From Agapetus fuscipes (Eukaryota > Arthropoda > Insecta > Trichoptera > Glossosomatidae), in contig OX637339.1 of the NCBI GenBank assembly GCA_951799405.1, positions 7,130,001 through 7,194,000 of the forward strand: a stretch of DNA of 64,000 bases. Direction: 5' to 3'. The position numbers and the translations under genes are program-made. Of the stretch, positions 23,701 through 64,000 are shown in pieces. Position 1 is the first letter of the stretch. Each line of letters begins with the position of its first letter. The notes beneath the pieces are model-generated. The model saw only the letters and a list, made by a program, of their open reading frames with translations. It had not been told where the DNA came from and searched no databases.

Positions 23701-26700
23701 CGTAATGAGCCGTTTGTAAATCATAATATTATGCTTTAACTTTCAAGGCCATTTATTCAAAATTAATTACCAAAGCAATTAATTATTCCTCCAAACAAGT
23801 CACGTGGACAGTTATGAAAAGTTAAGGGTGGCCATAAATGCCGAATTTCATCGTAAAAGTCACGTTTATTTATGCTTTCGGAAATTACCAACATAGCTAC
23901 CTACTAATTTCAAGGTTCTAATTTTACGATTCCTATCGACTCACCATTTTGGAATTCCGCAATTTACTAACTGACCTGACAGACATTGTCCTATCCAAAT
24001 TCCAATAAATGTAAAGGTATTTCCGTACTAATCATTTTGTGAAATTTGTTGTAAAAAAATAAAAAGTAGTCTGTAACAAAATAAAGGTTCGTCATCAAAC
24101 ACCACACGATCTATTTCGACGGTAATCTACACGATTCTGAAAAAAAAGTTAAAATGTGATGAGTATTATTACATTGTTACAATATAGAATCTATAATAAT
24201 AACACAGATTCTATATTGTAAAAATATAATAATACTCATCACATTTCATCATTTTTTTCAGTCAAGATTTTACACCAAATTCCTACACGAAAAAAAATGT
24301 TCAGCTATTAACGGATTCGAAAATCTTCCGTGATAATTTACCTAATTTTGGAATCCACTAACATTTTCCAGATTACAAACATATTGCAAGATGAAAAACA
24401 GCGAAATAACTTTACCAGTTCTCTAGTAAAGCGGTTACCAACGATCGTCATTTCATTTTTATCATTAAAATTACACACCTTTCTGTTCTGGAAAACTTCA
24501 GAAAAATGCTTATCAGCTTTCTTCTTTTCGATTATTTATTCCGTACCCGAAACCAATGCATTATGCACCCCATTAATCATGCAATTAACACGTGTTATTT
24601 GATGTGTTTCAGTGCTGGCCACGTGCAGGCCACGGCTGGTCACGTGGCGCGTACGTGTGCCGCTGCCGGGAGGGGTTCTACTCGCCCACGCACCCGCAGG
24701 GATTCAATGGGACCCTCGTGGAAGGTCAGACCTTAATGTGTGCTCACATATATCTACGCACTATTGTTGGATACTGGATCCCAAGTAGATTACTATTACG
24801 ATTTGCTTAATTATTTTAGGACGCTTATAGTTTAAGCACTGCAATCCGTATTTATAGGTTATAAAAGGATATTCTAGCATACACCAGACCATGCCAGAAC
24901 CGTCTCGAGCAGAAATTTCGAACAAATACGAGCAGGTACAACCATCCAAATACTTATGTCTAGAAAACATATACAAGTAAGTAAAAAAACACAGGCACAC
25001 AACCATAAGTAAACATACACAGACACACAATCATAAGTAAACATCCACAGATATAAACTTATACATTCGTAACAATGCATTGCGTAAGCTCCCCTCAATC
25101 GTGCGTATCGAAAAATGCTTGAAAACTTTATCACTCACTAGAGGCTGTTGTATCTTCAATTAATTTTTCTATTTGGTATTGATATCCTAGAGATATCGTC
25201 CCTTTAGTGCTTGTTTGTCTTATGCCCATCAGAGGTAATTTGCCGTGATCAATGTTTGTATGTGTACTGGACCAATGCGTCTTATGAAAACTGGAAATGG
25301 ATTTTAAAAATGTTTCAAAACAACTCTCACATAATGTGTCTTACTTTTTTCTTAGTTCTGTTTCTATTGTGTAGAGTGTGATTCTTATGGCAATTTCATT
25401 GAAAGTTCATCTTTGAATCAAATGGTAGATAAGCCAAATAAGCACTGAAGGGACGGATTCTCTTGCTGTGGTCTAATGGAGCTGAAGATTGCGGACGTTT
25501 CCCTAATGTCTACGATCTCTCACCCAACTCTCCAGGATCAAACAGTGGGCTTTGTAAACCTAAAATGGTGTTATGGCCGAGGGAGTCAAATGACTGATCT
25601 TTCTAACATATTTGGAATAAAATAACGTTGGTTCAATCCCTGCTTGAGTTAATTGACCATAACTTTGATCCTGGTTCAACAGATGTCGTTAGGTAATTAT
25701 TAATTCAAAATTCAAATAATTCAATAGTTCACAATAATGAATTATTATTTGATGATATTGATACCTAGGTTTCTAGCCAGTCAGAATAGGTTGGTGAATT
25801 GCATTCCTCTTCACAAATCTATTTAAATATATATGAACTAATCTACATAAATACGCACTGTTTCTCCTATGAGAAGCTCAAAAGGGTTGCCATTGATAGT
25901 GAGAAATCATAAAAAAATGTATGTAAGTACATTGCTGCAAACTCATCCTAAAATTGAAACAGAAGACGAAGAATATTCTAGAATATTCTCTTTCTTAAAA
26001 ATCAAGAATCAATTTTCTTAAGAAAAAACAAATCATAATCTAATCTAATCTAATCTAAGTTGCAAAATATATGTAACATTATAGATTCACATTATATGCA
26101 TTTTCACAAAACAGACACATATAAGTTCGCGCTTAAACATGCCGCATGTGGTCCTCCTACACCCTGCAACTCCTGTCGACCTTCCCTGAAACAGGAGTGA
26201 CATTGGCAAAGTGAACCATTTTCTACAGCATGCATATTCATTAATGTTATCTCCATGTTGATTTCCTAGTTGCCTGGCAGGAGCGAGGAGCTGATGCCCT
26301 GCTGGGTAGCCCCAGGGAGACTTCAGACGGCTGGTCGGCCCTGCGCTGCCTCCCCTGCGCCCCTGGCTGTGCCACCTGCAAGGGGCCCCAGCCCTGCCGA
26401 GCCTCCTACAACTGGCCCTTCCGGTACTATCTATAATGTTGTGAATGTGTGATTGTGTGTCTGTGTGTTTTTACTTGTGATTGTGCTTTTTTTTTACTTA
26501 TGTGAGAGTTTCCTACATGTAGGTGTTTGGAACATTGTACTTTTGTTTGCTCAAATGAAGACTACAGTGGAAAAGCAAGGAATGTCAGCAAAAATAAGAA
26601 AATAATCTACTAATGTAATTTGTCATGTAATTTAAATGTAATTTAAATGTAATTTAAAAATGTAATTTGTCATGTATGTTCCTTGACTTATAGGTTGTTA

Positions 26701-29700
26701 TGCGGCTGACCACCCATACTGTAAAAATTGGTTCACTTTGCCAATGTCACCCCTGTTTCAGGGAAGGACGGCAAGAGTTGCAAGGCTTATGTTCATTTGA
26801 GATTGGGTTTTTATATTGTAGGTCCACATGCGGCATGTGTTAGCGCGAAATTATACATATCTGCTTGTGGGAATGCATTTAATATAAAACTTAAATGATA
26901 TATATCTTTGCAGCTTAGATTAGATTAGATTAGAATGCTATCTAGTGGCATATGTGTGTATCTAAAGCTCTACAAAATTTGTAATGCAACAACAGTCGCT
27001 ATCACAGTTAATGGCGATATTTCAGATTCTTTTTGACGTGCAATAGCCATGAGAAATACCTGCAGACTTTAAAATTTATAAATTTGATTTACTCAAAATG
27101 TTCTTTAACTGATATTCCTTGTTCTTCCCCAGTAGTCTTCAAATGTTCTGGCAAAGTCGCAGAAGCTCCAGTTCACAATGTTTCGAGAACTGTCGTTATG
27201 TCATCCTTTATAAAGGGCTAAAGCCGTCTGCAGCGCAGACTCATGTCTGAAAATTAATTAATAAAAATAAATATATTAATTAATGTCATAACCTTATCAT
27301 TTATGTACCTACAATTCCTTTGAAAGGATATTCTATATTTTAAAATCTTGTTGATGATGCACCCGACAATCTGTCATCGCACCATCCAGCCATTTTGATT
27401 CGAGTGTTCCCACTCCTCTGCACCCATCGACTAAAATAAAAGAAAAAGATGGAGCATCAGTGCCGTTAGGTGTGCTAAAAAGAACACGCGTTTTCAAACA
27501 CTACATATTCTGTCCAGATTGTCTATCGATTACAAGACAAACTGTATAAAAGCTTTCATACATATCCACACTGCACAACTGACTTTTGACCCAGCGCGGT
27601 ATTGAAACAATCATAGACACACTGGGCAGAATGTGTTAGGTTGTGAAGAGTTGTGTTAAAAAAGAGAAGTATATGAGAACTATCAAACAAAAATTGTTGT
27701 TATTTTATGCCTCTTTTTTGACATTTGACGCTGCTAACTTGCGTCTCTTTTTCATTGTGTACCTGCGTGCATTCCATGACATATGCATAAGTCTGAAAAG
27801 AAACTGACATGCATTATCTGTTCAGAGGGCTCTTGAGGTGTGATACACACAAAACAGCGCTCACCAAATAAATCATCCTAATATTACTATTATTATCTAT
27901 TTCTTTTGGTTTGATCGATTTCCGCGCCTCTCTTAGTTCGTGACTGCGACTACCTTCTCCAGGCTATAATGATTTACCTTTTAATTTGCTACCTTACGCC
28001 CCCTTATGATGCCCTTGAGATGTACCTGGACTATTAAATGGCGCCACAGGAATTCATTCAATCATCTTACAGATCTGTGTTGCTGGGTATATCAGCGTGG
28101 TGCGCAGGAGGGACGGCTCTGTTGGCAGGTTTCCTGCATCGTCACCGCCGTGCCAGGGTGTTCCGCAGTGCCAGCCCCGTGTTCCTGGCCATTACACTCC
28201 TCGGCTGTGCCACCATGTATCTGGAGGTAATGCTTAAAACACAATCAATGCTACATAAACACTCAATACATCCTCATAAATTAGGATCATTTTTTTGGTG
28301 AGGAAACTTGATCATTGCTATTGAAAGCATCAATCGTGACCCATTTTCTGTAAAGCTGGATAGACCTTTGGTGACCAGTCTTTTTTTGAAAGCCAAATGT
28401 TTTTTTTTAATCTAGAAAAGAGCATGTTTGAAAATAAAAATATTTTCTTGTCCTTTGCAGTGAATCAAACTCACAACTTCGGATTATGAGTCCACAGCGT
28501 TAACTGCTTGAATACAGACAGTTCTAACTTAAATTAATACACGGTACAAGAAAAGCTAGATGCCAAGTAAAACTAACTTCAGAGCTGTATATGAACCAAC
28601 ACTTTAACTGAACGTGATAGAAACTATAACGATGCCATCTTATAAAATGTTGCTTTCGTTAGATCAACATAAAGTCAACCAAAAACATTATATTATATAG
28701 TTAACCTCAGTGGTAGAGTACTTGCATCCCATGCCGAGAGCTCGGGTTCAAATTTCACCAAGGGTTTCAGAAATGATTGCCCGTTTTAATGTTTATTTCA
28801 AACCCCTAAATAAAATACCGGCAAGGTTTACTCAGCCTTCACAAGAAATAAGTACCAGCCCCCTGGGGAGCTGGGAAACCGCCACTTCAACTGAAGTGGT
28901 TGGCGTAAGGCCGGCCCCTTACCCCTTACTGCCACATACGAAACCTTCGGGGATTATGTGGCAAGAAGTGACTATATGTGTAGCTTAGTTGCATTTTTTT
29001 GCCCTTGAAGCGTCACAATTTTTTTGTGATTTTCAAATGTGTTGATATTATTTCCAGATGGCTGCCATATTCCCTGTGTTGGACACTTACAGCTGCATTG
29101 CAACCAAATGGTGTCGACATCTTGGTTTCTGCATCACTTATACAGCGCTGCTCATGAAAACTTGGAGGTAAAATGTTAATTGTGCTTTTGTTATGATTGC
29201 CACTTTTCCTGGCAAGATATGAGCTTCAGCTTCATCTTCTTATGGTCTTCGAGATGTTTACATGGGACTCCCCTCTTGTGATTCAGAAGACCAACTGTTA
29301 TTTTTTATTGGTGTCGGCCTGATAGACACTGGTATTCTGGTATTTAACATTACTAAGTTGCACATATAGAGGATTTTCTTACTGCGTTCTTGCAAGTAAG
29401 GGAGGCTGCCCTTTCCCAATCTTTGCAGTTGAAGAAGGATTTACCAGCTTGTAAGGAGGCTGTTTCTCGTATCTGCTGAAAGCTAAGTAAGCCTTGCCCG
29501 AATTGCATTTTAAGTTTGAAATAAACACTACTTAAAACGGGAAATAATAACTCTAGCCTACTAGCATGCAATTGAAGCATCCTACCAACTAAGCTATCAA
29601 TCGGACTAGTTAAGAAAAGCAAATGATAATCCCAAAAATACAGTCTTATATATCTACAGAGAAATGTGAAAGGAAGAAGAGGTAAGCGACGGCCGAGAAA

Positions 29701-47610: not shown

Positions 47611-50600
47611 ATGGATATGGCATTGAACAATCCTTCGGCCGAGGGAACCTTAGGAAGGTGAAATCTTTTCAAATAATCCACTTCATTACAATTAAAACTT
47701 TCTAATCTCTTAGGAAATCAAATAATTTAACTTGTGCTCTGACAATTATTTAATATTTTTGTTTTATTTTCAACTTACTATCTTGTATTGATTTTTCTCT
47801 ATGATCTGACATGTAGGTATCGAAGGTAAATAATATGCAACCTGTTGTATAAAATGTACTGATGGAAATGAGATCCGCACATCAATTGACCTAGACAAAA
47901 ATGTAACGTCACTCAGCCGGCTTGCTGGGGACAAGGCAATTTAACTTTTTGTTATTGGTGGCTAAGGACCTTTGTCCCATACATGTGAGACGTGTGCCTG
48001 CCGAGAAAAAAATTCCAAATTCAAATTCGTGCGGAGTATTGTAAAGTACCTAGTTTGCTTGATTCACCGCAAAGCAAAAATTTAATCAGCACTATAATGG
48101 ACTCCGAACATTCAAAATATCTTTCAGGAATATGACGTCACCCATAGTAAATAAAAAATGGATTCTCTACAATCGGGGATCTTTTCCAAGTTCACAGCAC
48201 TGTCAGCCCATACCTTGGCGGAAATTCTTAATACTGTACGGGGCACTTTAGTGTCTTTTCAAATTACCTTCTATACATTTTAAAAGAGCGCCCTTTTTGT
48301 GTGCGTCAGACTTTAAGTATATTACAAATCGCCACCTTAAAGGTAAAACTAAATAAGTGCTGACTCACGAATTTGAGAAATCGTGGATAAAACATTTTAT
48401 TGGAAGTAACTTCTCATAGTAGTCTTCTTATTGTTTATAAGTGCTCATAAACAACTTATTAACTGCAGGATTTTCACACTTTGTAAATACGAGTATTTTC
48501 TCTGATGGAAAATAGGAAAAAAGGTGCATTTATCTGAGAAACCCATGCTAGCTTAATATGTCACTTATTCAGTTTTACCTTTAATTATCGAAACGGGATA
48601 TTTTATAAGAGTGCACTTTCAGTGCTTTCTTAAAAATGCCAATAGAGTCCTAATCCCCCCCTCCGGGTGGCAGTCTCTTCCATTCTATTGGTCCCGCAAT
48701 CCCCAAAATTAGTGCGTATTTGATGGTGAGGCTGCATCAACCTGACGGCACCACTCTCGCTGACCTCAGAGTCCGCCTCCTCACACTCACCTCAATGCGG
48801 GGAAAACATGTCTGTGGGGTATGGTGCTCTGTACTGTTTTTAGCCTGGCCAGGTGACATCACAAATCTATATTCTAAGTCGCAAAGATATATTACATGCA
48901 TTCCCACATGTAGACACATATAAGTTCACGCTTACACTATAAAAACCCAATCTCAAATGAACATAAGCTCTGCAACTCTTGCTCCTGCCGACCTTCCCTG
49001 AAACAAGGGTGACGTTGGCAAAGTGAATAATTTTTTACACAATAGGTGTCTCATCCCAACCTGTAAATCAAGGAATGTTTTTAAAATTTCAAATATTCCA
49101 TTCTAATAGTGTTGTTTGGTGTTTGTTACCAGTTGTCTCCTGCTGCGATGTGCCAGCCAGTCATCGCTGGACGAGAGCAGCCAGAAGGTGGCCGGGGGGG
49201 TGGGGGGCCCCGGGGGCGTGGGGGGAGGGGGCGCCTCGCAGAGACATCATCATCATCACCACGCCACCTCCGCCCTGGACGCGCTCAGCCAGATGAGGAA
49301 GTAAGGAGATCTATTGTTGTTTCATAAAAAATGTAATGCTCGATTGTGTGTGTTTATCTGTTGAAGGTGCTTGGAAATCTGAAGAGTTGAATTGTAATAA
49401 TATTTTTTTTGCATTGTAAAAAGTGAATATATTTTATTCTCCGAGACATGTGAGTGTACTTGTTTTTTAAACAAACAAAAAATTGTGTAAGGATCTGTAA
49501 GAAATTTTGCTGCATGTTATTTAGAACCCTTCTGAATTTGCTCTAGTGAATCTACGGAAAATCCGTGAGTGGGAGGTGGACTAATCACAGATGTAAAGCA
49601 ACATGTTGACATTACAGACAGGGAGTGTTGTGCGATGTACGCCTGGTGGCAGGCGGCACAGAAGTTCCAGCGCACCGGGCCTTGCTGGCAGCCTGCAGTC
49701 CTTACTTCAGGGCCATGTTCACACAGTTCGAGGAGTCGCGGAGAGATCGCATCACCCTGCAGGTATCACTTTACAACAATTTAACAACTCTGTTTAAGTA
49801 ATGAATAAATCATTTATAATCTCAGGTTTGTTGCAAAGTTATCATCAAGCATGCCAAGATTACAGGGAGTCAAAATCGAAAACAAAATTGTTTTTATTTT
49901 TAGCTTTCAGTTATGCTCAACTTGCCTCGATATCCTGTCATCATGTTTTGTCTCAGTGTCTTCATTTCTTTACTCACATTAACATGCCCAAGTTTTATTT
50001 ACTTGTATTTCTGTGTAATCTGTATGTTAAACAACTTTTTACCTTATCATTTCGTCTTACCTTTGCTCATAAAAGATCAATCTATGTGCTTAACCCTTCA
50101 ACTGCGGTTGACACGCATAAGCGTCAAGTGTAAACTTGCATTCAGTGCGGCTGTCAACCATAGACATCATCGAACTTTGAACTTTCGAACTGACATCTGT
50201 GTTCAACAATTCAAATGACTGCAAGTAGAAAATGTGCTTAAACCTTTGTGGTTTTTGTTCTTGAATAATTAATACACGTCACTGTTACATAGTTTGAAGT
50301 GTTGTCAATCAATTAAAGTAGGAAATCAATAAATGATTTTAAAAATGTGTTCCGTAGTAGGTGTTTTCATACAGTCAGCATATTCAGAAGGGAAAGGGTT
50401 AAGGAATACACGAAACTCATTCTGAATATGATGGGATTTGAATTGATGATTTTTGTTTCAGGGAGTTGATCCGTTGGCCCTGCAACTTCTCGTTGAATAT
50501 GTGTACAATCCAGAAGTTACCGTTACCGAGGAAAATGTTCAAGTATGTGATATTTAGTTCTACCCAACTCATTATTTTGAAGTTTTTTCCCATTGCATTC

Positions 50601-53600
50601 TAAGTCATGACTTCTCACAGAATTCTAAAGCACTACATAAACCTGTCCTCATAGATAGATGCCTTTGAAACTTCGCCAATGCTCTCTCAGCATCTTTGCA
50701 AGGAACATTTACAATAAAAGAACCATAATAAAAGAAGAGCTTGTATGAAGAAGGTTATGACTCTGGAGGAAATGAAAGAAGTATGTAAGGATAGAAAAAA
50801 ATGGCGGTTGATCTGTAATGTTGGCGGCTGGGGTTTGTTAAAGTAAAATTGGTTTTGTGATTTAGTTTTTTATGTCAATGTATATACTGTTATTTTATTG
50901 ATTTTAAAAATGTAATTTGTCATGTATGTTCCTTGACTTATAGGTTGTTATGCGGCTGACCACCCATACTGTAAAAAAATTGGTTCACTTTGCCAATGTC
51001 ACCCCTGTTTCAGGGAAGGACGGCAAGAGTTGCAAGGCTTATATTCATTTGAGATTGGGTTTTTATATTGTAGGCCCACATGCGGCATGTGTTAGCGCGA
51101 AATTATACATATCTGCTTGTGGGAATGCATTTAATATAAATCTTAAATAATATATATCTTTGCAGCTTAGATTAGATTAGATTAGATGATTAGCAGGCCA
51201 TCCACTGCATTTCAAGAATTCTTAGACAACCGTAAGCATTTTTTCCAGTTTCTGGAAGACCATAATGATTTCCCGTGACAAATTATTTTGGAAATGAGAA
51301 CCAGCTGCCTCGGGAGCTGGGAAATCCCCATTTCAACTAAAATGGTTGGCAAAATGTCACCTTACTTGTAAAAATTCAAATTTTCTAATGTTTTTTCATT
51401 TATGGAGTGAAAATTATTTTTTTAATTTCAATTAAAAATAACTTTTTTTATACAACACAGTTTTATTTTTGGTCTAAGGCTAAGAAGTTACCCTCTGATA
51501 GACGGATAAAGTCAGATAGCGCTTAGGCAATTTAACTCAATAAATGTGAAAATAAAACTGCTCTGTATATAAAACATTATTTTTAATTAAAATTAAAAAT
51601 GAAAAGATCCTGTCAGAAGATCACAGCGATTAGCCAACCGCTGATAATGCCCATCGGAGCAATGGGCGAAACTGTCCGGAATGAATCAACCAGACCACGG
51701 CTACATATCCCGAAAAAAGTGATTGTTGTGTCAACAAGTACCAGCCGTGAAAGCTTCAATGTACAATTAAAAATGAAAAGGTTTCCCACATGCCTCATGT
51801 GACTCCTTTGAGGTCATTGTGTTAAGGAGTTGTACTAATGTGCAGCTTCGTTTTTTTGTGTACTAAGTTAGTAGACTGCATTGGCTGTGCTACATCCAGC
51901 AAATGGATCATCATAACAAAGTGCTGCCACTTATCTGTCCAGTGAACTAGACGAACAAGGTATAGGACAAGTGGTGCTGACTGCAGTTGATAAAGGAAGC
52001 CAAGACCCATCCCAGGTTGTCGTGGTAGTGATTGATTGTCTCACACGCCTTGTGTTGCCAGGTGCTACTCCCCGCGGCTAACCTCCTCCAGCTGAATGCT
52101 GTGCGCGAGGCTTGCTGCAGCTTCCTGCTGGCCCAGCTGCATCCCTCCAACTGCCTGGGCATCCGCGCCTTTGCTGACCTCCACGCCTGCACCGACCTGA
52201 CACAAGCCGCCGACCGATACATACAAGCACACTTTGCGTAAGAAAACATACTGCCATATTTCCTTTTCCCGTATGAATACCATAGCCAAACTTCTGATGC
52301 CCATCAAAAGGCAAAAACTTGTTTATTTCGGTCACATAATGTCATCCTACATCTCAGCATACAGGGCAGAATTGAGGGAAGATGAGCTCCAGGTTGAAGA
52401 AGAACATCTTGGTTGAAGAACCTGCGACAGTGGTTTGGCAGAAGCACAAGATCCCTCTTTCGTGCCACAGTGTCAAATGATCATCTATCTTCGCTGAAGA
52501 GGCACAGGATGAAGATATAATATTTTTGGTTTCATGCCAGGAATATTTGTGGTGTAATTTTTTGTCAATGGAGATAATCAAAAAAACAAATGGACTTGCA
52601 CCTTCGAAACCTAAATAATGTCAAATAAAAACTCAATTGCAAATTCGAAAGGAGGATTCTTATAACCATCTAGTCAGGTGAGAGATAACAAAGGTTGGCG
52701 TCGTCAGTTCAATAAAATGTTCTGTGACGTCTACACAGAGCCTGCACAGAATGGACGACGTCAACCTCATGAAGCGCTTGGCCCCACAAGGATGAAGAAG
52801 ACCAGTGTTCTCCATAATTTTTTGATATTATTTGTATAAAAAACATTTGACAGCTTGGTCATCTGATCACACGTGGCCATGTTTTATCGCTTTGTATCTG
52901 AGACTTTGTAAATTCATCCAACGTATTGACAAGGGATCATGATTTCCCAGGGAGGTGGTGGAGTGCGAGGAGTTCCTGTCGCTGTCGCAGCAGCAGGTGG
53001 CGCGGCTGATCAGCAGTGACCGCCTCACCGTGCCCTCTGAGGAGAAGGTGCTGGAGAGCGTGCTGCAGTGGGCGGCGCACAGCCCACAACAGAGGCAGCC
53101 CCAGCTGGCAGCCCTCATGGAGCATGTGCGCCTGCCTCTGCTCTCACAGGTAAACACAAATTTAAGAAATGTGTATTATTTTTTATACCAATATTTATTG
53201 TGCTATAGTCCAATGAGCCTTGGCTTCGTTTAACCTCTGCCTCCAACTTCGCCTCCCCTCCAACGCTGTTCTGCAGTTTGCAACTTTTAGAAGCTGAGCT
53301 GAGCTTCCCTCCATCTCAGTCTGGGCTTTCCCTCTCTTCTCCGGTTATCATCCTTTTGGGAATCCCTGACATCCTGTGTGCATGGGAAGCCTGGCATTCT
53401 GTCAACATGTCCAGCCTTCCCCAACCTTTGCAGTCTTATAAAGGTTGAAATACTATTTGTTTTGTATATGCTGGACAGTGTTCTGTTCTGACAGAGAAAT
53501 GTGAAAAGCGAGTACTGAGAGATATAATCGGTGCCTTAATTCTCGTTAATCGAAAAATCAATTTATCCGTGCAATTCAGCAAATCCGTGAGCGACCAATA

Positions 53601-56600
53601 AAGATAATCCTGTAAATCTCACCCCTTTACCAGCAACTTTGTGTATGTTTCCAGGAGTGCCTGGTGGGCCGCGTCCAGACGGAGCCCGCCCTGCGAGCTG
53701 ACCTTCGCTGCAAGGACCTGTTGATAGAGGCGCTGACCTACCACTTGCTGCGCCCCGAGCAGCGCCTTGCTGCCACCACGCCAAGGTGCCGGCCCCGCAA
53801 ACCTGTCGGCTCCCCTAAGGTTAGACAGACATTGTGGACAAATGCTTGTACAAAACTCTTTAATGTGTTATTAAATACTTTCGGGCAACTTGTAGAACGG
53901 CTCACATTCATCCCTTTGCAGTCGACATCAAAACTATGAGAACTCAAGTGTTTTCATGACTCATTCCTTTGCCAAACTGCCCGCTTATGGAATGAGTTAC
54001 TGACATCTGTGTAACTCATTCTTATGATATATTTTTTTTACTGAATTTAAAAATACATCTTTTGGAGGTATATTTACTGTTAAAAAATACTTATGAGTGA
54101 ATTATTATTAATATTAATAATTTGATCTAGGCATTCCTTTTTCAGTCTTCCCTTTCCCCTCTAGCCACTTTTCATTATATTTCATTTGCTCTTTAGATGC
54201 TCTTTGTCAAGCGTTAATCATCCATTCTTTCCAAATGCCCAAAACATCTAATTACATCTTATACATTGCAACATATTGTTGGCTTGTTCTTCAGATGCTC
54301 CTTGTGGTGGGAGGTCAGGCTCCCAAGGCCATCCGCTCTGTGGAGTGCTATGATCTGCAGCAGCAGCGCTGGTACACCTGCTCAGAGATGATCACCAGGC
54401 GGTGCAGGTACTGCTCTTCCAAATCCAATTTCTCAACCTTTGAGTGATTTTGCGTTTCCATTGACTAAACTGCATCTGAAGCAGATTCCTAGCAATCCTG
54501 TTCTTTTTTTATACCTTTCCTACTGATGATCTAGCAACAATCCGATCATTGCCACCTAAAGTGTGCTAGCTTCATTTACATCAAGCCACTGTGAGCATGC
54601 CTCTGACCTAGAGTTTCTGGTTTTATTGTGTTGTTGCTTTTAGTTTCACAGGAAGGCCTTCTGCCACTTAAAAAAATGAAAGCTTTGAATATGCAGCAAG
54701 GCAGAGAATGGACTCTCCACTTGAATTGACAGACAAAATTGTGATGTCATATGGCCAAGTTTTTAGGGAAAATGTAAACAAATATTTTGTTTTTAATTTT
54801 ATAATTTTTGGATGAATTCAAACAAAACACTGTTTATTTTCACTATAAAATTTATTTAAAAAGATTAAAATCTTTAAACAAATTACTAAAGCGTTTTCGA
54901 CCTAGCATTTTGTTTTTAATTTAAAAAATAACATTTTTAATTCACTTTACATTTAAAAAAAAAAGTTATTGTTTGCTACGGGCGGTATTCCCATAAAATT
55001 GTGATGTTTGCTCCCCAAAGACAAAATTCTAAATTCAAAATTTTTCTTAGTTCATTCTCAATAAATCTATGGTGTATAATAGATTACCTTTTACTTCAAC
55101 AATTAACGTTTCTTGTTATTGTCCAGGGCTGGTCTTGGAGTGGTGGATGGCAGAGTGTACGCAGTGGGAGGCTTCAATGGTTCTCTGCGTGTCCGCACAG
55201 TTGACGTTTACGATGCAGCCACTGACATCTGGCAGCCTGCCCCCTCCATGGACGCCAGGAGGTCCACTCTAGGCGTCGCCGTCATTGACTCTTGCATTTA
55301 CGCCGTAAGTATTGTGTTTACACGCATTCCTAAAAGGATGATTCTCAATTGGATACTGAGGTCAGAGGGTGCTGGAATGGTGCTGTCGATGTTGCGTTGC
55401 CGTCAAATCTGTACCTATTTTGGGGACCGTGCTTTCCGTATTGCGAGACCTATAGACCAGACTGCCACCCAGAGTGAAGAATTCAGAACTTTTTCTTGCA
55501 TTTTTAAGGGAGCATTGAAAGCACACCTTTATAAAATATCTCATTCTTGATAAGGAGGGCCCTTGAGGTGTGACACACAAAAACGGTGCTCTTTTATCAT
55601 GTGTAAACCAGTTGAGCGGAAAGACGGTCTTCCGCATGAGGATTATTTTCAATTTGTAACAAGGCGTGATGGTTCTATAGCATGTTCCCTTGAACAGTGA
55701 TTTACCATCAAATTTTGCATGAAGCTTGGAAAGTACACAACCAAAACATTTCAAATGCTTAATGAGGCTCTCAAGTATGACTCCATTTTAAGGTCACAAG
55801 CTGGGAGGTGGCACAAGGCATTCAAGGAGGGCCTTGAGGTCGACAAAAAACTTGTTCTGGACGACCAACAACAGCCAGAACTGCCAAAAATACGGACTCT
55901 GTGGATGAAAACATGTGTCATGGAAGAACACTCCTTTGCTCTTGCAGTCTGAATTGGCTCCATGTGACTTTTCTGTGTCCCTGACCTAAGAGAGGTGAAA
56001 GTAAAGCATAAGGTCACCGTGGAAAAAATCCAAAAGCATGTTAAAGTGTGGCAGAGAGACATTCTCTTCAGTGACTTTCAGGGTGGCTTCCAGGCATGGC
56101 AAGCACGTCTCCACAAGTATATTGATGCAGGGAGAGAGTATTTTGGATTTTGTGCAGGTCTGATCGATTTTTTGAAAAAAAATCCAAGAAAATGCACGTT
56201 CCTTTCATAATGAACTATGTTCCTTGACTTATAGGTTGGTATGCGGCTGACCATCCATACTGTAAAAAAAAAAATGGTTCACTTTGCCAATGTCACCCCT
56301 GTTTCAGGGAAGGACGGCAAGAGTTGCAGGGCTTATGTTCATTTGAGATTGGGTTTTTATATTGTAGGCCCACATGCGGCATGTGTTAGCGCGAAATTAT
56401 ACATGTCTGCTTGTGGGAATGCATTTAATGTAAATCTTAAATGATATATATCTTTGCAGCTTATATTAGATTAGATTAGATTAGATTAGTAACATAAAGC
56501 TGTTGTGTTGCAGGTTGGAGGTTTTGACGGAGCCACTGGTCTGAGCTCGGCTGAAGTTCTGGATACCAGGGTGGGAGAGTGGAGACCTCTGGCCTCCATG

Positions 56601-59252
56601 ACCACCAGGAGGTCATCTGTCGGTGTGGCCGTCCTGCAGGGAAAACTATATGCGGTAAGTCATGTTAAAATTTGAGGTTAATAATCAACACGCTGGAAGG
56701 AACTCTATTTGATAAATTTTAAATCTTATTAAATTACAGTTAGATTGTTCTATACAAGACTTATTAAATAGGGTTATACGACAAGGCACAGGATGCTTTT
56801 TGGAACATGAAATAAGTTATGTTTTAAATCACAACTGTAGTCTTCAGGCACATAATACCATCTCAATGGGATGGGATGGTCCATTAAGCTGTTGATGGCT
56901 TTATAAGAGAGCACCATAAGAGATCCGTTGCGCCTAGTTTTCAGGCTTTCGAAGCAAATCTCCAGTATATGAGCCTAGCTGCAGTATTTTGTAAAAAAAA
57001 TGTAGCCTGTTGAGCTGCTTCTTGGGCTGAATATCGTAAATAGTGTTGTTATATGACTGTACATAAGGCACTGCATGGAGTGGCTCCGGAGTACCTGCAG
57101 GAACGACAATGCGAAAGAGTCTGAGCGTTAGGGAGCCAATTTTGCGATCTGTCGACAGTGCACTAACCGGTCTTAGCGTACCATGCAGAAAAAAGAGCAC
57201 AGTTTCACCATTGCAGGATTGTTCACTTGGAATCAGCTGCCCCCGAAGTGCGCGCCAAGGAAGGAATTGAGAGCTTCAAGAGGGAAATGAAGACCCACTT
57301 TTTCACCGCCGTGTCAAGACTGAAAGCACCCTTGCAGTGACATTAGTCACGAAATGGCGCTCTATAAATCATCATCATAATATATTTGAGTCAGGCTACC
57401 ACAAAGGAGTTCATAATTGAGGAGTGTGTTGATTTTTGCAGGTCGGAGGCTATGACGGTGCTTGTCGCCAGTGTTTAAGCTCTGTGGAATGCTATGATCC
57501 TGACAATGATGTGTGGAGTCCAGTTCCTGACATGTCTGCCAGGAGAAGTGGAGCTGGTATGTATTTGCGTTTATTGACGCTACGTTAATTTTTCTAGAGA
57601 GGAAAAAAGTGGGAAGGAGGGATGAAGTGGGAAGGTTATACAAGTTATGAACTAGACAGCAGCGTTAGAAGACAAGTGGAGTCGGACTAAAACTAAAGAA
57701 AAACGAAAACAATCGCGATCCTCTCCGCTTCCGCATTCTGGCACCCTGGAGGTTAAGGAATCTTGTGCAGGAGACCATGGAGGTCCATGACACTTGTTGT
57801 AGTGCCGCAGAGGTGAGGGTGTTGGTGATGTGACGGCTGATGTCCTAATCCTTTGTAGCAGTGCTGTAAGTGCATTGTGTTGTGTTGTGGGTCGTGCTGC
57901 CTTTGCATTGAGAGCTTTGGATGCAGACTTACTGTAAGCAAGAGGCAAAAGACTTTTAAATTTCTCACCTTTATTGCTGGTAACTAATGTAGTCTAGGGC
58001 GTGCATCCCATACAGGCACATGGGCCTAATAGGTAGGCAATATAATTATGCTAAAAAACCATTTAAGCTTGATATTCAGATTTAAAATTCAAAATTGAAG
58101 TTCGATCGGAGCCATGGTTAGCACTTCAGTCAATTTCAAATGAGGTATTTTATAGAAACTGGAGAAAATATGTAATCTAAATGCCTACATCCTATGCACG
58201 CGCCTGAATAAAGTGTATTATGTACAGGTGTTGGAGTGTTGGATGGAGTTCTGTATGCTGTGGGAGGGCATGATGGTCCGCTGGTGCGGCGCTCTGTGGA
58301 GGTGTGGCGCCCCGGGGCCCCCTGCTGGCAGCCCGCGCCCGACATGGTGGCCTGCAGGCGAAACGCGGGCGTGCTACCCTACCAGGGACTTCTCTACGTC
58401 ATTGGCGGAGACGATGGGGCCTCCAATCTTAACACAGTCGAGGTAAATATCTACACAAATTTTCATGATGAGTAGAATCACTCTTTCTCTTCAAATTGAG
58501 CCTTTTTCGAACACTGCACCTCAAATTTCCCCCATCCCCTGCACTTAGCCTCCAACTTTACACCTGAAGAAGCTGTGAAATATTTTTTATCAATATTACT
58601 TGATACATACTATCGTAGGCTTCCCTGGAAGTAGACATCCTTTAATCGTCTGCAATGCTTTGTTAGAGGGACTGCTTCTGCAATGTTACTTTTTCTAGAT
58701 TTGTTTGGCAGAGTGCAGTTGGTTTTTTTTAACTAAGAAAAAGAATTACAATTTTTTCATCTGGCAAGCTGCAGCCTAGATAACTAGATAAACAGCAAGT
58801 ACAACACAAAGTGAAGACGTCTTTATGAAGGCATCTGGCAGCTGGATTGTTTTGATATTATTGTTAAAAACAACATGGAAAGTGAATGTAATCATTGACA
58901 CTGGCGAGTTGTTTTCCGGAATCTGTTGCCGTGATCTATCGAAGCTAAAACTTCCGGAGATTTTTCCCATATCTACGATGGGCTTCTTCAGCATGACAAT
59001 GATGCGATGTGGTGTTGATAAAACTGTTATGTTAAAGCTCTAGGTCCAATTGACCATGGCACTAGATCTCAGAAAGCAAATTTCTAGTGTCAACCGCCGG
59101 CCGTGAAAGCCTAAAACATCTATTCAATGTGATGATTGTTTCTGTAGGTTTACAATCCCAAGACTGAGACCTGGACGACCTTGGAGAACGGCATGTCCAT
59201 TGGTCGCTCCTACGCTGGAGTGGCCATTATAGACCGGCCGACACCCGCCTGA
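47611..59252 (+). CDS. kel: Kelch (KLHL2/KLHL3-type) BTB-Kelch adaptor of Cullin-3, ORF1
   Basis: Exons: 47611-47657, 49133-49300, 49618-49762, 50462-50542, 52062-52237, 52951-53149, 53655-53819, 54295-54407, 55127-55304, 56514-56654, 57442-57556, 58228-58442, 59148-59287; TGA at 59250. The sum is 1848 nt, 615 residues; all junctions are GT-AG and in phase. A Ser/Gly/His-rich N terminus precedes BTB (about 72-170: [23 protein letters not shown]), BACK (about 170-275: [32 protein letters not shown]) and six Kelch blades (about 328-612: [54 protein letters not shown]), ending [11 protein letters not shown] as in KLHL2/3. It recruits substrates to Cullin-3 ligases; in flies it acts on ovarian ring-canal actin. 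The tiny first exon is chosen because its phase fits and its ATG has an AAAATGG context; it is the least certain exon. Confidence 0.92.
48341..48590. mobile_element. MITE, about 250 bp
   Basis: Inverted ends AGGTAAAACTAAATAAGTGC (left) and the complement of AGGTAAAACTGAATAAGTGA (right). A second copy lies beyond the kelch 3' end at 62502-62734. Non-coding, in kelch intron 1. Confidence 0.7.
50745..51187 (+). mobile_element. LINE 3' end with C-terminal codons and tail
   Basis: Reads [20 protein letters not shown] then [17 protein letters not shown], about 95 nt of variable sequence, the shared 3' UTR from 50925, and TTAGATTAGATTAGATGATT at the end. This is the clearest copy joining the polyprotein end to the dispersed repeat. 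It lies in kelch intron 4. Confidence 0.8.
51270..51375 (+). mobile_element. SINE family 1 body fragment
   Basis: Retains GATTTCCCGTGACAAATTA, CCTCGGGAGCTGGGAAATCC and a CAACTAAAATGGTTGGC stretch; tRNA-like head absent. Confidence 0.5.
52290..52520 (+). mobile_element. LINE C-terminal coding relic
   Basis: Reads [11 protein letters not shown], then in shifted frames [20 protein letters not shown], the same signature as the relic at 20820-21050. It starts about 55 bp after a kelch donor (52237) and is disrupted by stops and frameshifts. Confidence 0.6.
55690..56208 (+). mobile_element. Mariner-type transposase relic
   Basis: Starts [20 protein letters not shown]…[14 protein letters not shown], the N-terminal helix-turn-helix signature of mariner (Mos1-like) transposases. 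A deletion and frame change lead to SELAPCDF, then VEKIQKHV and a C-terminal end [20 protein letters not shown]…EYFG. The central DDD region is missing. It is a dead copy in kelch intron 9. Confidence 0.75.
56217..56490 (+). mobile_element. LINE 3' end next to a kelch acceptor
   Basis: Near-consensus 3' UTR copy. Its TTAGATTAGATTAGATTAG tail ends about 23 bp before the acceptor of the kelch exon at 56514. Confidence 0.8.
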
Positions 59253-59278
59253 CCTGCGGGGGGCCCCGTGCCCCCTGC
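59250..59278 (+). promoter_or_regulatory. Readthrough stop (UGA-C) and 3' RNA hairpin
   Basis: The stop is UGA followed by C, the leakiest four-base context. The stem pairs 59256-59264 (GCGGGGGGC) with 59270-59278 (GCCCCCTGC): nine pairs, eight Watson-Crick and one G-U, around the loop CCCGU. It starts 3 nt after the stop and lies wholly within the exon, so it is present in mature mRNA. Confidence 0.7.
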
Positions 59279-61391
59279 CTCCACAAGGTAACACAACAAT
59301 GCACCTTCTCTTCTTGATTTTTTTTTTGACTAGGTGGTGAGTAACAGCGCCAAGAAAAAGTTTGTCAGGAGTCTGATCCATTCTGTTTTTCTCTATGCTG
59401 CTGAAACATTGAACATATACACATGCATTTCACTACGTCCGGAACCAAAACCGGACCGTTTGAAAAGGGAGCTATTAAAAAAATCATATTTTTAACAAAT
59501 GATTTTATTTTTTGTAACTGTTTCCAGACCAGTCAATGTATTGGATGAAGGGGAAGAGGAAGTGGAGCGGGGGGGCAGTGGGGCTGCAGGGCAGGCGGCA
59601 GGGGGAGCAGCAGGGGGGGCAGCAGGGGGGGCGGGGGGAGCAGAGGCTTCCCTGCGCAGGAGACCAGCTGCCCAGGAGGAGCAACCCAGGGAAACGGAGA
59701 ACGAGGGGCAGCGGCCGACTCTCAGGGCAGAACAACCAGAACAGCAAGCCAGCGTGCCCAATGCACAAGAGCCACAACAGGACCTGGTGAGGGTGAATGC
59801 TCCTGATAACGAAAACCAAATTGAAAATGTAGTCATCAATGCTGTGGACAACCCAGCTAGATCTTCAAGTCACTTCCGACTGGATCTCAGTCCAAACCTC
59901 AACAAACCTGACCACATCTACGAAAGACTAGACGAACCGTCCACGTCCACTGTGACATCTAATTCCACAGCTCCGACTCATTGGCGCTTCAAAATGTTCA
60001 AATCCGGATCAAAGAATTCAAAGCACAATAGTTCCAAAGATGGATATGCTAAAAATAGTAAGTATAATCCTGTTACGGGAGATTATGACGTACCTAAACC
60101 GCTAGGTAAAATGGCTGACAAGTGCTTTCCGGGAAAAGCCAAGAATAAAATGAAGATATCGCCGATTGTTAACAGTGGAGAACCGTCTAGCAGTAGCAGT
60201 CCAATGAGTTTGAATGTTTGCTTTGGGAAGAAGCTGCTACATTCTCCGTCTAATTCTCAGACGTTGGAGTTTAACGATAGGAATCAAGAGAGTAGAGAGA
60301 GCGCAGGGAATAACCCTGGGACGTCCACATGTCCAAGAAGTACTCCAGCACCTTCACGCACTGCTAGCACTAACGCTACAGCTAACTGCTTGTATGGCAG
60401 GCTGGGCAATGCTTATGGTCGCTTATCTGTCATTGGTTCTGGCATTGGACGCATCGAACGCCATCTCAGCTCCTCTTGTGGCAACATAGACCATTATTGT
60501 GCTTTACATCCAAGGCCTGCAACAGCTGAAGGTAATCCTCACTTCCGAATTGAAAATCAAGAAGTTGAAGCCGACAGAATCTATCAAAATTCAGAGATTG
60601 TCCTAGATGAAATTAACCGTGTTATTGCTGGACCTTCCGCTCCTAGTCCAGCTCCCCCAGGAATAAAAAACATCTCGAAAGGTTCCCTTCAGTGGTTAAT
60701 GGTTAACCGATGGTTGCCATTGTGGGTAGCTAACAGCGGGGGAAAGAAAGAGTATAAAGTCATTGATTTGGATTTCTCAATCTACGATGACGTTCAATAT
60801 CCAACATGCACTTCACAATGCAACGGTGAGTACTGCCGCGGGCGGAATGTCTTTGAAACTTGCAGCCTTTATCGCAGAAACAACTGTTTACCCCCTGACA
60901 ACTGCTTCAACATGAGTTTGAATCGAAACCGAGCGCAGCGACAGCACGAAGAAGAAGGCGCACACAATTTTCACGTTCATGACCTGGCTCAAGACAACAT
61001 GGTCAATCCTGCACGCCCTGAAAGGACACACACGCTTATCTTGCACGATCACAACCCGAACCCACCACAAAACGAGTGTGATTCTCCTGAGTTGGATGGA
61101 ACAGCTGCGGCTTGTTATTCTGGAAGCAAAGGGAACTCTTTTTCTGCTCAGGATAGCTTCCCGGATAACGAGCAGGATTTGAGTTTGGGGGATAACGAGG
61201 TTTCTGTGTCTGAGGGGACAGCTGGTGACCCACCTAGTAACAGCAGTGACACCTACAGTCCTTCCAGTTCTGTGGCTGAAGCTCTGCCCGTTATGTCTCC
61301 TGGAGGAAGTTCTCCCAGCGATAGTTCACAGACCGCGGTGCAAGATAATGTATCCAGCAATGATCCACAACCATCCACTTCTAACAATTAA
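59253..61391 (+). CDS. kel: Kelch ORF2, predicted stop-readthrough extension
   Basis: After TGA 59250-59252 the same frame runs 35 nt to the donor at 59288 (AAG|GTAACA), joins 59528 (TTTCCAG|ACC) with the split codon AG+A, and stays open to TAA at 61389: 632 codons, versus an ORF1 of 615. It begins PAGGPVPPASTRPVNVLDEG. An acidic/Gly/Ala tract with (GGAA)-type repeats follows, then Ser/Asn-rich sequence with Tyr motifs (DHIYERLDEP, GDYDVPKP, EYKVIDLDFSIYDDV), a short hydrophobic segment (SLQWLMVNRWLPLWVA), a Cys cluster (CTSQCNGEYCRG…CSLYRRNNC), and a Ser-rich end. No known domain recognised. The preceding exon is 140 nt, so skipping it would break this frame. Confidence 0.82.
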
Positions 61392-64000
61392 ACACATCAA
61401 GGATACTTTGCGTAGATGGATCTTTAGAACCTTGAATTATTTTATACTAAGGTTTTTTGATTCCAGAAAGGTGTGTACACTGATAGTTTTGGTTGATATA
61501 AAGTTGAACCATAATCTCAGTATAAGATTATTCAAGGTTAGATGTATTGCATTTTCAGACAGTATAATGCTTTTCATGTTTACAATATTGTAAGTTGTGT
61601 TACCTTATGTGTATAAATAATGTTTTGACTAAATCTTATTATATGGCCAACTTCACATTGTGATGCTAGTTTCAAAATGGTGAACATGATATTTTTTCAC
61701 GGCTGTACCAGATAGATTCGGCACAAATTTTATAAACAATAAAATTGTAACGTCACACGGCGGGTAGCTAGGGAAAAGCAAAACTGATATTTTGTTATTG
61801 GTTACTAAGGACCCTAGTCATTGATGTGACGTTTTCCAGTTGAGGAAAAATGTATCTTAAATAAAATTATGCTTCTAGATATGTTATTTTATAAAAAACT
61901 ATTTTAAAGTTTTTCATTTCCTCCGTTGTACACCTTTACAATAGCTGCAATTGTATGTAAAGAGGAAATGTGCAAGGAAATAGAAGAAAGGAGAGACTGA
62001 GAAAAGTATGGGTTGATCAGATCAATAAGATTGTGTAAGAATGGGATGTAGAGGTATGAATGTAAAAGAAGGAAACGTATGAAAAAGGAAATGGATGTGA
62101 ATGAATTGAAAGTGCGAGACAGAAGGTTGTATTGGCTGCAAGACTGTATTGACTCTGGCCACTCCTAGCTGAAAAGCACGGTAATTACTGTGACAAAAAT
62201 ATTATATTCACCATTTTGGGTCTTACGCATTCGTATAATAGGATTTTACCAATAGTTGCATTTTTTTCTATTTTATCCGTCGATCAAAATAAAGGAAATA
62301 GATGGAGCATCAGAGCTGTTTGCTTTGCCAAAAAGACTATGCCTAAAGCTTTGTCTTAATAAAGCAAGGTTCAAGTATATGAGAGAGAGTACAAGTGCGT
62401 TCAGGTCGGAATTGAAGACATGTTTGTTTCGGAGATGTTACAGTTGAAAAGTTCTCTTGCAGTGATTTATCACAAAACAGCACTATAAATCGCCACCTTT
62501 AAGGTAAAACTGAATAAGTGCTGATTCACTAATTTGAGAAACTGTGGATAAAACATTTTATTGGGTGTAACTTCTTATAGTAAGTGAACTAATTATAGAA
62601 AGTGCTAATGAAGAACTTCTAAACTACAGGATTTTCACACATTTTTTGTGTTTTCTCTTGTAGAAAATAGGAAAAAGGTTAATTTATCTGAGAAACCCAT
62701 TTTAGCTTCATACGTCACTTATTCAGTTATACCTGGGTATCAAAATATTTTCTTATTATTATTAGTATCAACTGTCATAGAATACTGAAGTTATTTTTGA
62801 TGCATGACGCCAATATATTGTGTCTCTTTTTTTCATTGTCTACCTACTTCCGTTCCATGGCATGTCCATTACAATGGGAAGAAACTGACTTCTACCATCT
62901 ATTTCTTTTATTTTGATTGATGAATTTGTTAGTGGGGCTGTCTGCTGCAATGAATATTTCCTCTGACTGCTATTTAAAAATATGACAATAGAAATTCCTA
63001 GAAACCACTATATGTATATATTGCATTTGTCTACTGCATATTTTTATAGTTAAAATTGCATTTTCAAATAATATTATATTTTTCCAATAGATAATTATTT
63101 TTAAGTTTACCTAGTAGTGTAACCATATGATTGATATTTTTAAATAAGTTTTATATTTTTTCAACATACTGCTTTGTGTAAATATATATTTTTTCTTTCT
63201 ATTCTACTTAATTCCAAAAATGGAGTCCAAAATCGCTGAAATAAATAGTTTCACTTAGCTGGGTTGTGATGGGTTGAATGGTTGCTAAGGACCTTAGTTC
63301 CGAATCTGACCACCACCACCATTTTGGGGTTGTCATTCATAGCAAATAAATTATAAGACCAGAGACAGGCATACAGTAATATGTCAACGCTCTATGTACA
63401 GTATTTAAAACATCTGTCATGGTATGTCACTATAAGTATATTTCACTATGTTCTAAAATAAATATAAAATCCCAATTAGGTATCTCTTATCCATTTTTTA
63501 TTTTCTGTGGGCGACAACCTGTGACGTCACCCAGCCGAGGAAAATTTTTGAATGTGCGGACTCCATTTTTAATTTAAATATTTTCTGTGTTGCTAGCGTG
63601 TTTGGCAATTTGACATTAAAGGAGTAATTATTAAACTAAATGTAAGAATTATTGTACATATGAAATCTTTGCTTCAACAATAGTGTTTTAGGTAAATATT
63701 CTTCATATCTGATGTGTTCTTATAATAAAGGCCGTATTCAAGAGCTCACTTGGGCGCTAATAGTAAAAATCGTGGTGGGGGTAGCTCGCTCACAAAACAC
63801 CCTGAACGATTATAAGCGAACTTCATCTCTCAAAGCACGGCAGAACGGATGTAGATTTATCTCAAAATGCATTATTGTAAATTTATATTTTCTAAATATA
63901 TTTTCAGCAAATTTTTCAATTATTAAAGTTCTTTTTATAACTCAAATCCAATTATAACTCAAATCCATCATTAATAATTGTGGCTAATATTTGTGTTATT
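61392..64000. other. kelch 3' flank, no further gene seen
   Basis: Follows the kelch TAA. AATAAA-like signals occur at about 61614 and 61738, so the 3' UTR may end near there. Repeats: a fragment with GTAACGTCACACGGCGGGTAG (about 61740-61840), a LINE coding relic (about 61960-62160, RRKERLRKVWVDQINKIV), a MITE (62502-62734) and an element with ATGGAGTCC-type inverted ends (about 63221-63566). Other ORFs are short and unsupported. Confidence 0.6.
62502..62734. mobile_element. MITE, about 233 bp
   Basis: Inverted ends AGGTAAAACTGAATAAGTGC and the complement of AGGTATAACTGAATAAGTGA; the interior matches 48341-48590 (GTGGATAAAACATTTTATTG). Confidence 0.75.

Follow-up and report, generated by a model that had tools for sequence, protein, structure and literature searches.

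Robinson and Cooley in 1997 and Hudson et al. in 2021 are said to have described the ORF1-UGA-ORF2 readthrough of Drosophila melanogaster kelch. The preliminary description of the present locus gives this structure, with tissue-dependent readthrough, as known, and in excerpts of three papers readthrough of this UGA is treated as experimentally established (PMC3840789, PMC4132726, PMC8417969). According to these excerpts, readthrough extends a 76 kDa protein to one of 160 kDa, is commonly about 5% and rises in imaginal discs at metamorphosis (PMC4132726), with higher levels in nervous tissue (PMC8417969). In an excerpt of a further paper, abundant readthrough is thought to originate in Pancrustacea, although neither Tribolium nor the honeybee was found to have it in abundance (PMC5100048). 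No paper on kelch readthrough beyond Drosophila was found in a literature search over titles and abstract openings.

The plus strand of the window (the whole stretch of 64,000 nucleotides that was analysed) contains an insect kelch gene of the KLHL2/3 type, modelled in 13 coding exons, in which all introns are GT-AG and the phases agree (Table 1). Judged from the comparisons below, it is very likely an orthologue of the Drosophila ORF1-UGA-ORF2 readthrough gene, with a UGA that is very probably read through. D. melanogaster kelch is the same family member and, as here, has a UGA after the final kelch repeat and a long in-frame ORF2.

Table 1. Coordinates of the kelch locus in the window
Feature	Positions	Strand	Basis	Remarks
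Kelch ORF1, coding exons 1-11	49133..58442	+	gene model	BTB, BACK and most kelch repeats; 5' end incomplete
Exons 1-4	49133-49300, 49618-49762, 50462-50542, 52062-52237	+	gene model	
Exons 5-8	52951-53149, 53655-53819, 54295-54407, 55127-55304	+	gene model	
Exons 9-11	56514-56654, 57442-57556, 58228-58442	+	gene model	
Exon 12	59148-59287	+	gene model	140 nt; starts in phase 0, ends in phase 2
Readthrough-candidate stop	59250..59252	+	sequence	UGA, then C (UGA CCU GCG)
Predicted 9-bp GC-rich hairpin	59256..59278	+	folding	59256-59264 with 59270-59278; possible stimulator
Intron 12	59288-59527	+	predicted splice	240 nt, phase 2, GT-AG
Exon 13	59528..61391	+	homology	remainder of ORF2, open up to TAA 61389-61391
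YDVP motif of ORF2	60084..60095	+	alignments	same Y, D and P in all 11 aligned sequences
Conserved ORF2 block 1, YGRL..GIGRIERHLSSSCGNIDHY	60381..60497	+	alignments	ORF2 residues 297-335
Conserved ORF2 block 2, NISKGSLQWLMVNRWLPLWV...	60669..60791	+	alignments	residues 393-433; contains the sole predicted helix

The ORF1 model is 599 codons long and incomplete at its 5' end. In a Pfam search its 599 residues match BTB (3e-30), BACK (3.4e-33) and six Kelch_1 stretches; as a member of this family, its protein would be a Cullin-3 substrate adaptor. The sole in-frame Met of the first coding exon found (in SQMRK) is preceded by residues common to relatives, and the relatives begin farther upstream, with N-terminal residues additional to those of the model. 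Therefore, at least one upstream coding exon is missing from the model. Exon 12 holds the end of the last kelch repeat, the ORF1 terminus, the TGA, and 11 ORF2 codons plus two bases of the twelfth.

Other features of the window are as follows. An interspersed repeat of about 260 bases is found at 50930-51190 and in 20 further BLAST pieces on both strands, up to 98% identical (e.g. 56221-56481, 26680-26934 and 46219-45967), at least two copies lying within kelch introns. A kelch intron has a possible remnant of a mariner-type transposase at 55701-55952 (Mos1 HTH, E 9e-4, under the Pfam cut-off). Upstream of kelch, at about 24589-28298, are exons of a GPR158/179-like class C receptor (PF22572, E 5.6e-5, and 7tm_3, E 8e-7, both under cut-off).

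The position of the UGA may be compared with the ends of vertebrate KLHL2 and KLHL3 (chains 2xn4 and 4ch9), which share the kelch domain and C-terminus of ORF1. The alignment of the KLHL3 chain to ORF1 ends two residues short of the chain end and four before the TGA, and the KLHL2 chain aligns to the ORF1 end likewise. Both chains, presumably human, stop where ORF1 stops and, unlike the window gene, are without an ORF2; we take their ends to be the natural termini of the vertebrate proteins. The residues IDKP are found at the matching place in fused fly models and in a beetle-like protein (P0035). By these alignments, the UGA is the first stop of the gene and is located at the ancestral kelch terminus.

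Beyond the TGA, the frame of ORF1 remains open for 632 codons, across intron 12, to the TAA. Both this open frame and the GT-AG intron with its correctly split AGA codon, as given in the preliminary description, are reproduced in the gene model; the predicted phase-2 splice has the donor AAG|GTAACA and the acceptor TTTCCAG|A, and the split codon reads AG|A over 59287/59528. The claim that so long a frame is very unlikely to arise by chance holds as well. Exon 13 has no stop in the ORF2 frame, whereas its remaining frames contain 60 and 17, and in 1000 dinucleotide shuffles of this exon no forward frame stays open for more than 268 codons, with none reaching 620. Thus, on the mRNA spliced at the predicted junction, a long ORF2 lies in the frame of ORF1. 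The figure of about 1248 residues given earlier for the extended protein is not recovered: ORF1 and ORF2 together have 1233 codons with both stops counted, which is a minimum because the ORF1 model is incomplete at its 5' end.

Segments of ORF2 were used as queries in three protein searches, which yielded at least 136 distinct proteins; in one of them the best 120 of 140 matches were used, and another scored the 7984 candidates with the most words in common. When compared with ORF2 by BLASTP in a separate run, each of the 136 proteins listed has an E of 1e-3 or better. The lowest score among them is 48.9 bits, versus 28.5 bits for the best of 50 shuffled ORF2s, a control that covers composition only, the 136 proteins having been gathered with ORF2 as the query. 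The named matches among those listed are from flies, mosquitoes, midges, a sand fly and two beetles. The closest relatives among the matches listed are the three contig proteins P0021-P0023, with 69-71% identity over 96-100% of a 141-residue query region of ORF2 (E down to 3.8e-54) and 56-62% over ORF2 as a whole. Fly-type aligned sequences have 22-28% identity to ORF2 overall, and the ORF2 of other Drosophila species contains blocks homologous to it. In the beetle kelch proteins P0051 and P0031, ORF1 at 66% identity is found in the same protein as a match to ORF2 residues 301-426 at 40-41%. A scan of viral contigs for DNA related to P0023 found no relative. At the level of amino acids, ORF2 is conserved and homologous to the corresponding part of kelch in Drosophila and mosquitoes. 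On the strength of these comparisons, ORF2 is conserved coding sequence.

Conservation is uneven along ORF2. Over its first 100 residues, exon 13 is low in complexity and shows poor conservation, with identity to P0022 at 5 of 21 aligned residues and to P0023 at 8 of 27. Farther on, two islands stand out in the alignments, GIGRIERHLSSSCGNIDHY and SLQWL.VN.WLPLW, and within the first block GRIERHLSSSCGNID is invariant across 35 aligned sequences. No Pfam family is matched by ORF2. An AlphaFold2 model of the exon-13 part (35 sequences) has a mean pLDDT of 47 and a pTM of 0.25, and predicts one helix, at exon-13 residues 384-392 inside the second island, with low confidence elsewhere. This fits disorder, as in the longer Drosophila readthrough tails, for which an excerpt describes disorder with islands of conservation (PMC4528330). 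The 632-residue tail is probably disordered, with two strongly conserved islands.

Tyrosine motifs recur in ORF2, namely YDVP, and YENIYE in flies with HIYERL in the window gene. These motifs could be phosphotyrosine or SH2 binding sites.

Among the other routes to ORF2, the one that survives best, although improbable, is alternative splicing that removes the TGA, either from a donor upstream in exon 12 or by skipping exon 12 (or exons 11 and 12) into an exon-13 acceptor. In the preliminary description, no donor ahead of the TGA was held capable of bypassing it. A GT at 59194 is in fact in phase with the acceptor at 59528, but it scores just -1.0; the three GTs before the TGA in exon 12 score -1.0, -2.2 and -2.8, versus 5.2-10.3 for the 12 modelled donors, on a small matrix built from the window model's own 12 introns. 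The further claim that the 140-nt exon cannot be skipped without loss of frame is true of the acceptor at 59528, but not of two others inside exon 13. Stop-free in-frame routes lead from the end of exon 10 (57556, donor 7.9) to 59590, and from the end of exon 11 (58442, donor 9.1) to 59595. The acceptor at 59590 (11.4) scores about as high as the modelled one at 59528 (10.9), and that at 59595 (5.2) lower than the lowest modelled acceptor (6.4). Both routes, however, would delete kelch-repeat residues at the end of the propeller, with probable damage to it, and are therefore rated unlikely; they would also delete the start of exon 13. Moreover, the window has no second exon 12, its further tblastn matches being the remaining repeats of the kelch domain or weak ones (E 0.28 or higher).

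Database gene models also bear on splicing, since several, P0016, P0031 and P0051 among them, join ORF1 to ORF2 without the stop. Both parts are present in 18 of the 136 proteins listed. In 17 of these 18 fused models, inspected by eye, the residue at the stop position or a longer surrounding stretch is missing, but the joins differ between species, as would be expected of gene predictors dodging a stop. This suggests that predictors avoided a stop in the kelch models of several insects by inventing joins. Only one fused model runs unbroken, that of the beetle-like jgi protein P0035, in which W occupies the place of the stop; presumably either TGA was translated as W, as would be expected under a TGA=W table, or the gene has TGG. 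Models from Anopheles (P0132), Glossina (P0125), Polypedilum (P0019), Sergentomyia (P0133), Holotrichia (P0031) and Asbolus (P0051) have an ORF1 60-66% identical to that of the window and ORF2 blocks downstream; all six are annotated as fused, with the stop residue or more missing, and were compared as proteins alone. In addition, several of the 136 proteins (e.g. P0008, P0039, P0084 and P0092) have short leaders running directly into RYANC or SYANC. Such leaders may be explained by an acceptor AG plus one split-codon base in genomic contigs, the window having AG|A there, and the intron after the stop therefore seems to be old.

Less probable still is a separate gene or transcript for ORF2 with its own start. 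An ATG in intron 12 (59499) is in the ORF2 frame and would need no splice, but its start context is poor (C at -3), and the continuity of frame and phase between ORF1 and ORF2 would then be coincidental. P0035, moreover, is a single continuous ORF across the junction, and in Drosophila a 160 kDa extended kelch protein is made, according to the excerpt (PMC4132726).

Reinitiation after termination of ORF1, with ORF2 as a downstream cistron, is very unlikely on the sequence. Proteins with ORF2 only that start with M, one or two residues and QGA account for 22 of the 136 listed, and so in flies a Met probably adjoins the stop. By an excerpt of a ribosome-profiling study, an extension was left unscored if any of its first three codons encoded Met, except for the experimentally shown kelch (PMC3840789). 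In contrast to these fly proteins, ORF2 of the window has CCU GCG after the UGA and 167 codons without AUG. Its first in-frame AUG (59994, ORF2 codon 168) is preceded in the spliced mRNA by six out-of-frame AUGs, which, with the lack of an AUG near the stop, argues against reinitiation. Conserved residues also lie before this Met, and over exon-13 residues 101-155, P0022 and P0023 each agree with ORF2 at 36 of 51 aligned residues.

Equally improbable is decoding of the UGA, the codon concerned, as selenocysteine or its editing to UGG: Rfam models return no 3' UTR SECIS for 59100-64000 (three matches, E 1.8, 2.3 and 4.9, far under gathering scores and taken as chance), which makes a selenoprotein a weak alternative, and editing would require an A with a 5' G, which ADAR disfavours.

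The readthrough interpretation of the preliminary description is thus supported, through the homology of ORF2, the weakness of selenocysteine and reinitiation, and the need of any bypass for a poor donor or the loss of kelch-repeat residues. The context of the UGA points the same way. In an excerpt on ancient A. gambiae readthrough candidates, the first stop is TGA in 75.9% and the next base C in 62.7% (PMC5100048), so that UGA-C, the majority context, fits readthrough. The evidence for the predicted hairpin, which begins 3 nt after the UGA (+7), is mixed and suggestive only; its stability hardly exceeds what composition gives. The 45-nt stretch from +1 to +45 has -19.4 kcal/mol (z -1.5), and 26 of 300 shuffles are as stable. 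The shuffles equalling or beating the structure number, per 300, 17 for +4 to +60, 64 for +4 to +80, 4 for +4 to +100, 81 for +4 to +150 and 74 for +10 to +60, and z ranges from -0.5 to -2.4 over the six stretches.

Under readthrough, most ribosomes would terminate at the UGA and release a complete BTB-BACK-kelch adaptor, while a fraction would decode it with a near-cognate tRNA, stay in frame over the 59287/59528 junction, and append the 632-residue, probably disordered, ORF2 tail, which would roughly double the length of the protein. Decoding of this kind would be favoured by the C after the UGA and perhaps by the GC-rich hairpin; tissue regulation as in Drosophila would be an extrapolation. 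It is about as likely as not that the recoding of kelch goes back to an ancestor shared by flies, beetles and the window lineage, that the phase-2 intron some twelve codons past the stop is conserved, and that ORF2 of the window lineage is accessible solely through readthrough, with UGA-C and the hairpin driving it; the species were compared by protein sequences, and the stop codon itself was read in the window DNA alone.

The readthrough mechanism is already known, and what is added is the species and the lack of an AUG near the stop. The locus would extend the ORF1-UGA-ORF2 readthrough architecture of kelch to a lineage for which the nearest relatives in the databases are not among the flies or beetles named. 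Its sequence nearly rules out reinitiation in this kelch gene, and pinpoints two short islands of ORF2 kept by selection.
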